Of a DNA stretch of 46,454 nt, positions 8,520-11,016 are shown in pieces (the stretch's first letter is position 1; every line of letters starts with the position of its first letter). The stretch spans positions 1-46,454 of the forward strand of contig SKLV01000060.1 of assembly GCA_007121385.1 (NCBI GenBank), written 5' to 3'. The stretch is from Bdellovibrionales bacterium. Its GTDB lineage: Bacteria; Bdellovibrionota; Bdellovibrionia; Bdellovibrionales; UBA1609. The position numbers were made by a program, and so were the translations under genes. The notes beneath the pieces were generated by a model that saw only the letters and a program-made list of their open reading frames with translations, was not told the DNA's origin and did no database searches.

Positions 8520-9740
8520 TTAAAAGCAGCTTTTGGCCATAAAGCCTCTTTGGCCCGAGCGCAGCTGAACCTCATACCAGCTGGCCGAGTGATCTCGAGC
8601 GAGAACCACTGTCCCCCTTGAAACCTCCATGGTCACCTGAGAGGGCGCTCGAGCGCTGGGCTGAGTGCGCAGGTTACAGTTACGCCCCACTGTGCGGCGC
8701 TGAGGCTGTCCGGAACCAGACTTGGACCTCAACTCCACATTGACTTGACCGGCCTCGGCCCTGGCTCTGGCATCAGTGATACCCTGATCGGCCGCCGTGG
8801 CCGTGGTGCGAGCCTTGACCTCTCGTTCCCGACTCTGAACCACACTTTGCTGGGCCTCATCGCGGCGCTGTTGAGCTCGTTGAACTTGGCTCTGCTGTTC
8901 CTGACGAAGCTGCTGGGCCCGAACTTCGGCTTCGCGAGCGCGAACTCGGCTCTGCTCAGCTTCAGCCTCAGCCATCACTGCTTGCTCTTGCAAAGTGTCC
9001 ACCTGTCGGCGCAGATCTCGGACCTCCTGCTCAGTCTTGGCTACTTTATCTCGAGAAGCAGAAATGTCCTGACGAAATCCCTCAATACGCCTCTCAGACT
9101 CCGCTTTTTCTCGCAGATGGGTCTCCCTGGCTCTTGCCAAACGCTCCATGGCCACATTTTCCTGTTGCTTAGCCTGTTGCAGCTCTCTTTGCACCTGGCT
9201 GGTCTCATCCCTTAAAGCCTGAATCTCAGACTCCACCTTCCTCGCCTGCTCGACCAACTGGGCCACCTTGGCCACTTGCGCATCCCTCTCCTCTTTAGCA
9301 GACTGAGTCACAATTCTTGCCTGCTCCAGATCCCGATTCTTTTCCTGTATTTGAGTCTCGTATTGTTTAACTTCTTCCTCGGCCCTGGCTCGACTCTCTT
9401 CATATCGCCGGTACTCAGCTTGACTGGCGGTAATTTGACGATCCAGATCCCGGATCTCCTGTTGCGCTGCCCTCTCCTTCGCTCTCGCTTGAGAGGCTGC
9501 GGCCTCAGCATCTCTCTTAGCCTGTTCGGCCCTTCGCCTTTCATCTTCTGTCCGACGGCGAGTGGCCTCAGCCTCAGCCCTGGCCGCTTCTGATTCAGCC
9601 ATAGCCTCCTCCATTCCAATCTCTACGTCATCGAGGTCAATGGATAGAGCGGAAGGAGAAAAAATAAGCCCTCCGAGGGAGATAAGCCCCAAGAGAGTCA
9701 CCATCGAAGTAGTCTGCTGGAAAAAATTTAAGCTTTTCAT
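8520..9740 (-). CDS. Secreted coiled-coil protein with C-terminal SH3 domain
   Basis: This is a 406-residue protein with a signal peptide (FFQQTTSMVTLLGLISLGG onward to ALS). Then come about 290 residues of charged heptad coiled coil rich in Ala, Arg, Glu and Gln. It ends in a ~60-residue bacterial SH3 domain: RNCNLRTQPSA, then RGTVVLARD, WYEVQLRSGQRGFM. Such SH3 domains usually bind peptidoglycan, and the layout recalls envelope organisers that work with amidases. The neighbouring divergent gene encodes an amidase, which fits but does not prove a link. I use ATG 9740 (AGGGAGG just upstream) rather than an in-frame codon at 9791. The low-complexity coiled coil makes homology searches unreliable. 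Confidence 0.7.
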   Translation of the reverse strand: MKSLNFFQQTTSMVTLLGLISLGGLIFSPSALSIDLDDVEIGMEEAMAESEAARAEAEATRRRTEDERRRAEQAKRDAEAAASQARAKERAAQQEIRDLDRQITASQAEYRRYEESRARAEEEVKQYETQIQEKNRDLEQARIVTQSAKEERDAQVAKVAQLVEQARKVESEIQALRDETSQVQRELQQAKQQENVAMERLARARETHLREKAESERRIEGFRQDISASRDKVAKTEQEVRDLRRQVDTLQEQAVMAEAEAEQSRVRAREAEVRAQQLRQEQQSQVQRAQQRRDEAQQSVVQSREREVKARTTATAADQGITDARARAEAGQVNVELRSKSGSGQPQRRTVGRNCNLRTQPSARAPSQVTMEVSRGTVVLARDHSASWYEVQLRSGQRGFMAKSCF

Positions 9741-9870
9741 GGCCTCCCTATCGGGGGAGAGAGGAAGGAACTTTATAAACTCAGTGAACAAAAGTGAAAT
9801 TAGTTCAAATCAGGACCCATTTTTGGACCGCTCGTAAAGAAGGTGGACAGAAGAACATAAAATAAGTGAT

Positions 9871-10010: not shown

Positions 10011-10026
10011 TGGCACCGGACTTGCT
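10011..10026 (+). promoter_or_regulatory. Sigma-54 (-24/-12) promoter
   Basis: The sequence TGGCACCGGACTTGCT matches the consensus TGGCACG-N4-TTGCW at all positions but one, with GG (10012-10013) and GC (10024-10025) exactly ten bases apart. Transcription should begin near 10036-10039. No good sigma-70 pair overlaps it. It lies just before a strong terminator, so the product would be a short RNA. Confidence 0.75.
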
Positions 10027-10036
10027 TATAGGTTTG

Positions 10037-10091
10037 GTATCCCCCCTTGGCGACCTGGTCCCCCTCCTTACCCTCCAGGTCGCTTTTTTTT
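10037..10091 (+). ncRNA. Predicted ~55-nt sigma-54-dependent small RNA with an anti-Shine-Dalgarno loop
   Basis: The start is inferred from the sigma-54 element and the end from the terminator. The RNA would have a C-run at its 5' end (CCCCCC, 10041-10046). A 9-bp stem follows, GCGACCTGG (10050-10058) paired with CCAGGTCGC (10075-10083), with a 16-base loop. The loop contains CCTCCTTA (10064-10071), identical to the last eight bases of bacterial 16S rRNA. Such a loop could pair with Shine-Dalgarno sequences of mRNAs. The alternative is that this is only an early terminator in the leader of the amidase gene, 120 bases on. The sequence is clear; expression and function are inferred. Confidence 0.55.
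10050..10091 (+). terminator. Intrinsic terminator of the predicted small RNA
   Basis: A perfect 9-bp GC-rich stem (10050-10058 with 10075-10083) is followed at once by eight T residues. It points rightward, although the nearest rightward gene upstream ends at 8475 and the gene between (8520-9740) points left. So it must end a transcript starting within this gap. Confidence 0.85.
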
Positions 10092-10212
10092 GCCTTTTTT
10101 ATGGCTCACTGCATTATATGCCCTCGTAAAGTGCCGCCTTGGCCCAGGCTCTGGTTGAGTTTAGGTCCAAGCCCACTTCCACCTTGGCCTTGGGGCCCAC
10201 TACAATTGGATT

Positions 10213-11016
10213 ATGCCCATAGCTCCCCTCTTCTCTCGAATTTTATTGAGCCCCTTGGTCCTTGCTGGACTGATTGGGCTTCCCGCTCAGGCTCTTCATG
10301 TGATGGTGGACCCAGGCCATGGGGGACGTGACCTTGGTGCCACCCATGGAGGACTTAGAGAGTCTGATTTGGCCCTCAGAATTTCTCAACTCCTGGCCGA
10401 ACACCTCCGCCAAGACCCTGATTTTAAAGTCACTCTCACCCGTACTGACGATCACTATGTCAGCCTCACTGAGCGGGTGCAGATGGCTCAGTCGACCCCG
10501 GCTGACCTCTTTCTCAGCCTCCATGTAAACTCATCCCCCGACTCCCGTGCTCGAGGTGTAGAGTTCTACTTTCGCAGTCAGCTTCCCCCCGATCAGGAGG
10601 CCATGGCTCAAGCGGCTCGGGAGAATGCGAACTACCTTCATCACCTTGAAGGGAGCCAGGGTCCAAAAAGTCACTTAAAAGCTCACAAAAAAAATGAGGT
10701 GGATCTCATTGTAGAGGACTTAGTTGAGCAAAAACGCACTCGTCTTAGCAGTGAGCTCACTCGCCGTCTGGATCGCCAGTGGAGGGGATTGCGCAAACAG
10801 TCTAAGATGAACAGTCTTCGCCAAGCTCCTTTTAGAGTGATCACCCAGCCCCCCATGCCCTCCGCTCTTGTTGAAGTGGGCTTTTTAACTAACAGTCGAG
10901 AGGCCCAACTCCTTAAGAGCCCTGAGTACCAAGCCCAAGTGGCTTTAAGCCTTTATAGAGGCTTGAGAGATTTTAAAGAATTAATGGACAAAGATCGGCC
11001 CCTAGGCCTACAGTAG
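10213..11016 (+). CDS. N-acetylmuramoyl-L-alanine amidase (Amidase_3)
   Basis: This is a periplasmic zinc amidase that cuts the bond between MurNAc and the peptide stem. It is 267 residues long with a signal peptide ending PAQA (about residue 27). The zinc ligands are visible: His in VDPGHGG, Glu in GLRESDL and His in SLHVNSS. The catalytic Glu is in ALVEVGFLTN. It is a bare catalytic domain of the AmiC type, lacking an AMIN domain, so it must be targeted another way. The coiled-coil/SH3 gene across the promoter region is a possible partner. Its stop lies five bases before RNase PH, so these two are probably co-transcribed. No clear ribosome site precedes ATG 10213. Confidence 0.88.
   Translation: MPIAPLFSRILLSPLVLAGLIGLPAQALHVMVDPGHGGRDLGATHGGLRESDLALRISQLLAEHLRQDPDFKVTLTRTDDHYVSLTERVQMAQSTPADLFLSLHVNSSPDSRARGVEFYFRSQLPPDQEAMAQAARENANYLHHLEGSQGPKSHLKAHKKNEVDLIVEDLVEQKRTRLSSELTRRLDRQWRGLRKQSKMNSLRQAPFRVITQPPMPSALVEVGFLTNSREAQLLKSPEYQAQVALSLYRGLRDFKELMDKDRPLGLQ

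Follow-up and report, generated by a model that had tools for sequence, protein, structure and literature searches.

A candidate sigma-54-driven small RNA of the Bdellovibrionales with conserved C-rich runs that may pair with G-run ribosome-binding sites

Results

Architecture of the locus

The window, a 46,454-nt stretch of DNA from a Bdellovibrionales bacterium, carries a compact unit at positions 10011–10091. The gene upstream (8520–9791) lies on the minus strand and is transcribed away from the unit, so that it does not read through into it, as the original prediction had noted; an amidase gene starts at 10213, on the same strand as the unit and ~120 nt past its terminator. All elements of the unit lie on the plus strand. 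The first, read directly from the DNA, is a sigma-54 (−24/−12) promoter element, TGGCACCGGACTTGCT (TGGCAC-N5-TTGCT, 10011–10026), which conforms perfectly to the consensus TGGCAY-N5-TTGCW and to its core GG-N10-GC, with GG at 10012–10013 and GC at 10024–10025. Promoter geometry, with the start set 12 nt past the C of the −12 element, together with the terminator, predicts an sRNA of ~54 nt spanning 10037–10090. Its leader contains a 5′ single-stranded C-run, CCCCCC (10041–10046), the putative leader seed. The 9-bp hairpin of an intrinsic terminator follows (10050–10083), and its arms, GCGACCTGG (10050–10058) and CCAGGTCGC (10075–10083), enclose a 16-nt C-rich apical loop, TCCCCCTCCTTACCCT (10059–10074), the putative second seed. 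The anti-Shine-Dalgarno octamer CCTCCTTA occupies 10063–10070 within this loop, and the hairpin runs into a conserved tract of eight T's, also read directly (10084–10091). Promoter element, C-run near the RNA 5′ end, hairpin with its T-tract and octamer are all present as the original prediction had described them.

Taken singly, the promoter or the octamer means little, because 1.2 −24/−12 elements with at most one mismatch are expected per shuffled 46-kb window, and CCTCCTTA occurs five times in the window against 2.1 expected. The predicted RNA fold had a z-score of −5.45, with none of 200 shuffles as good, and was dominated by a single hairpin (frequency 0.81). The unit as a whole is confirmed and beyond doubt, because its homologues across the family and order keep the order of the parts and a covarying stem.

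Distribution and promoter conservation

Using a 121-nt query, blastn recovered homologues in ~28 of the 59 relatives. The exact pattern occurred at 43 loci in named genomes, nearly all of them Bdellovibrionales and including a strain of B. bacteriovorus; the few exact-pattern loci from other phyla were without the RNA's hairpin and T-run. A covariance model (R1) trained on 39 sequences matched the window at 10011–10092 (E = 6e-20, the window sequence itself being in the training set) and placed the RNA in 113 of 369 genomes of the phylum, at one copy per genome. These genomes belong to the window's order, apart from two that represent another family of the same class. Absences within the window's family fell mostly among small genomes of 1.2–2.0 Mb. 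One copy lies at 2,620,002–2,620,083 on the minus strand of a genome that we take to be B. bacteriovorus HD100.

Two loci depart from the usual layout. The window's own genome has a second C-loop terminator hairpin (CCCCCCTTGGTCGGCTGCCCCCCAGCCGGCC followed by T8; L111, G000:C125:20471–20538, minus strand) that is without a −24/−12 element; it may be a relative or a chance occurrence and was left out of the copy count. At L130 (G038:C35:19601–19704, minus strand), a sigma-54 element is present and an extra CCCCA-loop hairpin stands between the leader C-run and the terminator.

Conservation of the promoter was assessed in 17 blastn homologues aligned through the RNA part only, a set unbiased by the pattern and model searches. 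A −24/−12 element of the form TGGCAY-N5-TTGCT stood at the right distance in 16 of them; the exception, L022, is with L120 and L123 among the few members that have apparently lost the element. The sigma-54 gene rpoN was found in 56 of the 59 genomes, among them that of the window (G000:C92, E = 1.6e-64). On this sequence evidence, the sRNA is apparently sigma-54-driven. In part of Bdellovibrio, a TGTC-N9-GACA dyad (CAATTGTC...CTGTCnAAAnnCTCGACA) precedes the −24 element by ~60 bp, in a block conserved upstream of the sRNA promoter at L139, L132, L143, L146 and other loci; no such block was found in the window. Because the dyad also occurs at many unrelated HD100 sites, most without a good −24/−12 element nearby, it does not allow an activator to be named.

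Covariation of the stem and composition of the loop

We aligned 74 distinct homologues by sequence only. Across the 9-bp stem, 98.2% of pair cells held standard pairs, and both sides had changed at six of the nine pairs; none of 500 shuffles and no slid register came near this level of covariation. The stem was strongly conserved in sequence as well. The loop varied in length from 9 to 25 nt and was biased in composition (61% C, 2.7% G). C-runs were nearly universal, with at least five consecutive C's in 69 of the 74 loops and at least four in all 74 leaders.

Relation to known RNAs

No Rfam family (release 15) exceeded its gathering threshold in the window. The best match below threshold, ncS54 (21.7 vs 43 bits), was rejected as resting mainly on a generic terminator. 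Membership of the 6C RNA family (RF01066) was likewise rejected: the HD100 copy scored 20.6 bits (E = 0.86), below the 47-bit cut-off, and has one hairpin only. The 6C RNA of Actinobacteria resembles the present RNA in its C-rich loops but has two hairpins, and reportedly pairs with several mRNAs without a chaperone.

RepG of Helicobacter pylori is ~87 nt long with two hairpins; we know of no sigma-54 drive for it, and its host, to our knowledge, is without Hfq. At ~54 nt, the RNA described here is shorter; it has a single hairpin, carries a 5′ C-run in addition, and belongs to a different phylum. The trait matched, a likeness by description, is the C/U-rich terminator loop, which in RepG, a conserved and abundant sRNA, base-pairs to a G-repeat within the leader of an mRNA (PMC8295292). 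The target encodes a chemotaxis receptor (tlpB), and its G-repeat is variable (PMC8295292).

The alpha-r14 / NfeR1 sRNAs of Rhizobiales carry an unpaired anti-Shine-Dalgarno motif in their hairpin loops and have several mRNA targets (PMC10746234). They combine three hairpins, an ultraconserved CCUCCUCCC and a sigma-70 promoter, whereas the present RNA has one hairpin, a drifting loop and a sigma-54 promoter; membership was rejected, since a single hairpin with a variable loop does not provide the conserved CCUCCUCCC in three loops. Pxr of Myxococcus xanthus, which takes part in lifestyle control in a predator, has a predicted sigma-54 promoter and enhancer region (PMC5684412). Set side by side by their descriptions, the two RNAs share a predicted sigma-54 promoter and a predatory host, but Pxr has three stem-loops against one here.

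Closer in phylogeny, a 2013 RNA-seq study of HD100 described eight attack-phase sRNAs of 98–655 nt, some with FliA promoters (PMC3627812). None of the eight lies at 2.62 Mb (PMC3627812), which counts against the proposed sRNA, though libraries of this kind readily miss transcripts of 54 nt. These sRNAs and merRNA, from the same organism group, are larger than the present RNA and lie at other loci (PMC3627812); the hit-locus sRNA of HD100, at 96.4 kb, is also away from it. In the literature searched, we found no base-pairing Bdellovibrio sRNA whose structure is widely conserved and for which a target has been proposed. By sequence and analogy, the RNA appears to represent a new sRNA family that would work most like RepG and, from what is reported of it, 6C RNA.

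G-run ribosome-binding sites and a candidate target

Hfq was detected in none of the 59 relatives of the window's order, in a search that was positive for 5 of 14 control genomes. In ten Bdellovibrio genomes, there were 58 occurrences of GGGGGG 3–9 nt before ATGAAR compared with 8 of the reversed pattern, and only one gene family, a secreted S8 subtilase, had this G6 pattern in all ten. A G-run of at least six within 25 nt of the start codon preceded the subtilase in 24 of 30 Bdellovibrionaceae genomes, compared with 2 of 210 background genes, although the first count cannot be read as a probability because the genomes are related. It comprised all ten discovery genomes and 14 of the 20 others. 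The G-run was retained in other genera even though the rest of the leader differed.

In 27 of the 30 genomes, the predicted pairing of the leader or the loop with the subtilase site was equalled or bettered at only 0–6 of 210 background sites. In HD100, a predicted duplex of −17.7 kcal/mol joins the leader segment GCAACCCCCCAU to AUGGGGGG at the subtilase site, and 1 of 210 background sites did as well or better. Compensatory changes between seed and subtilase site showed no consistent pattern beyond the G:C run. These comparisons and pairing models suggest that the secreted subtilase mRNA is likely a target in Bdellovibrionaceae. In the window's own family, no target was found, and G6 was absent from the subtilase homologues checked there.

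The number of G6 ribosome-binding sites per genome was ~14 in RNA-bearing members of the window's family vs ~4 in RNA-less members, whose genomes are smaller; it was ~6 in Bdellovibrio and similar in outgroups without the RNA, genome size and composition confounding these comparisons. G-run ribosome-binding sites thus occur in RNA-less genomes, and how many there are shows no clear relation to the presence of the RNA. A G-run can itself act as a Shine-Dalgarno site. Apparent targets with a longer G-run (TG8 followed by ATG) were discarded, being mostly the antisense strand of the sRNA itself.

Two observations were made alongside. In most of the genomes sampled from the phylum, poly-G tracts of at least six before start codons exceeded the reversed pattern several-fold and often preceded exported proteins, which the ATGAAR filter favours. 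Bdellovibrio subtilase leaders (L273–L302; in HD100, upstream of G190:C1:2169176, minus strand) contain an apparently covarying hairpin just before the G-run site, GGACTTCAA-TTG-TTGAAGTCC, with the variants GGACTCC/GGAGTCC and GGATTTC/GAAATCC.

Discussion

The explanation we favour, and consider reasonably probable, is that the unit encodes a single-copy, trans-acting sRNA under sigma-54 control, which blocks selected mRNAs by pairing its C-runs, without Hfq, to their G-run ribosome-binding sites. Sigma-54 polymerase, together with an enhancer-binding protein, would start near 10037, and the hairpin would halt it at the T-tract. The resulting RNA would expose two unpaired C-rich seeds, the CCCCCC of the 5′ leader and the terminator loop, both of which could bind the G-run ribosome-binding sites, again without Hfq, and so keep ribosomes off the selected mRNAs. 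The analogy with RepG suggests that a terminator-type sRNA with two unpaired C-runs would pair with G-runs.

The original prediction had instead centred on the loop as a copy of the 16S rRNA 3′ tail, in an RNA that could bind the Shine-Dalgarno sites of many mRNAs as a global brake or a selector. As a global anti-Shine-Dalgarno brake, the loop would mimic the tail and compete for many ribosome-binding sites at once. The window's loop does contain CCTCCTTA, as do 10 of the 74 aligned loops, CCTCC occurs in 27 of 74, and in Rhizobiales the alpha-r14 sRNAs target many mRNAs through CCUCCUCCC loops (PMC10746234). The octamer is nevertheless confined to this minority, mainly within the window's family; in Bdellovibrio the loop consists of a C-run that ends in AAU. 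The 16S sequence barely changes, and a general anti-Shine-Dalgarno RNA would be expected to preserve it. Because the octamer is rare while C-runs are nearly universal, we regard it as a local variant of the conserved C-rich loop, and a global brake as unlikely. The exact match to the 16S tail is therefore not the key feature it had been taken for. Comparison with related genomes, proposed at the outset as a check, accordingly upheld the promoter and not the loop octamer; what stands of the sRNA reading is a short sigma-54-promoter unit with a conserved promoter, stem and C-rich loop. Judging by the conserved C-runs, the partners would be G-run sites and not Shine-Dalgarno sequences in general.

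The same drift of exact letters within unpaired stretches that stay C-rich and G-poor would also suit an RNA that acts on a protein, for instance as bait for Rho or another C-binding protein, and the strong conservation of the stem sequence fits such a role too. A 54-nt RNA with ~12 + 16 unpaired bases is, however, short for Rho, and the predicted pairing with a conserved G-run speaks for base-pairing; we think it rather improbable that the RNA works through a protein alone.

The genomic surroundings bear on two further alternatives. In the window's family, the order is a coiled-coil/SH3 gene (minus strand), the sRNA and amidase-rph-rdgB-prs (plus strand), an arrangement that, with the amidase downstream on the same strand, would fit a cis-acting attenuator or leader of the amidase gene, the plain alternative of the original prediction. 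In Bdellovibrio, by contrast, the amidase lies upstream of the RNA on the other (minus) strand and the coiled-coil gene downstream, and in other families the RNA is found beside peptide-binding, transporter and other genes. Because the orientation of the amidase flips and the neighbours differ between families, the RNA is an independent unit. Its divergence from the amidase in Bdellovibrio rules out the attenuator in our view, and the absence of any alternative to the dominant hairpin leaves this reading very improbable on structural grounds as well. The amidase, used as a query against viral contigs, returned no match. It is more improbable still that the promoter alone matters and the RNA is waste, with sigma-54 polymerase or its transcription interfering with neighbouring promoters: the unit does have divergent genes on either side, both in the window and in Bdellovibrio, but it is kept beside unrelated neighbours too, and it would be left unexplained why the leader C-run, the covarying stem and the C-rich loop are conserved. 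A small peptide read from an ATG or TTG past the C-run can be rejected as barely credible because loop lengths (9–25 nt) do not change in steps of three, and the ATG that follows the leader C-run in Bdellovibrio copies is not a conserved start codon.

Returning to the double-seeded sRNA, its presence in the model strain HD100, short and single-copy, with a definite promoter and a candidate target, makes the proposal directly testable. A wider version is possible, although we offer it tentatively: throughout the order, sigma-54 and a signal may induce this double-seed C-rich RNA to silence mRNAs with poly-G sites, including those of secreted hydrolases, without Hfq. If this is true, the G-run would be the address tag of a regulon in predatory bacteria, and the RNA would illustrate a way of sRNA control in an order in which Hfq was not detected.
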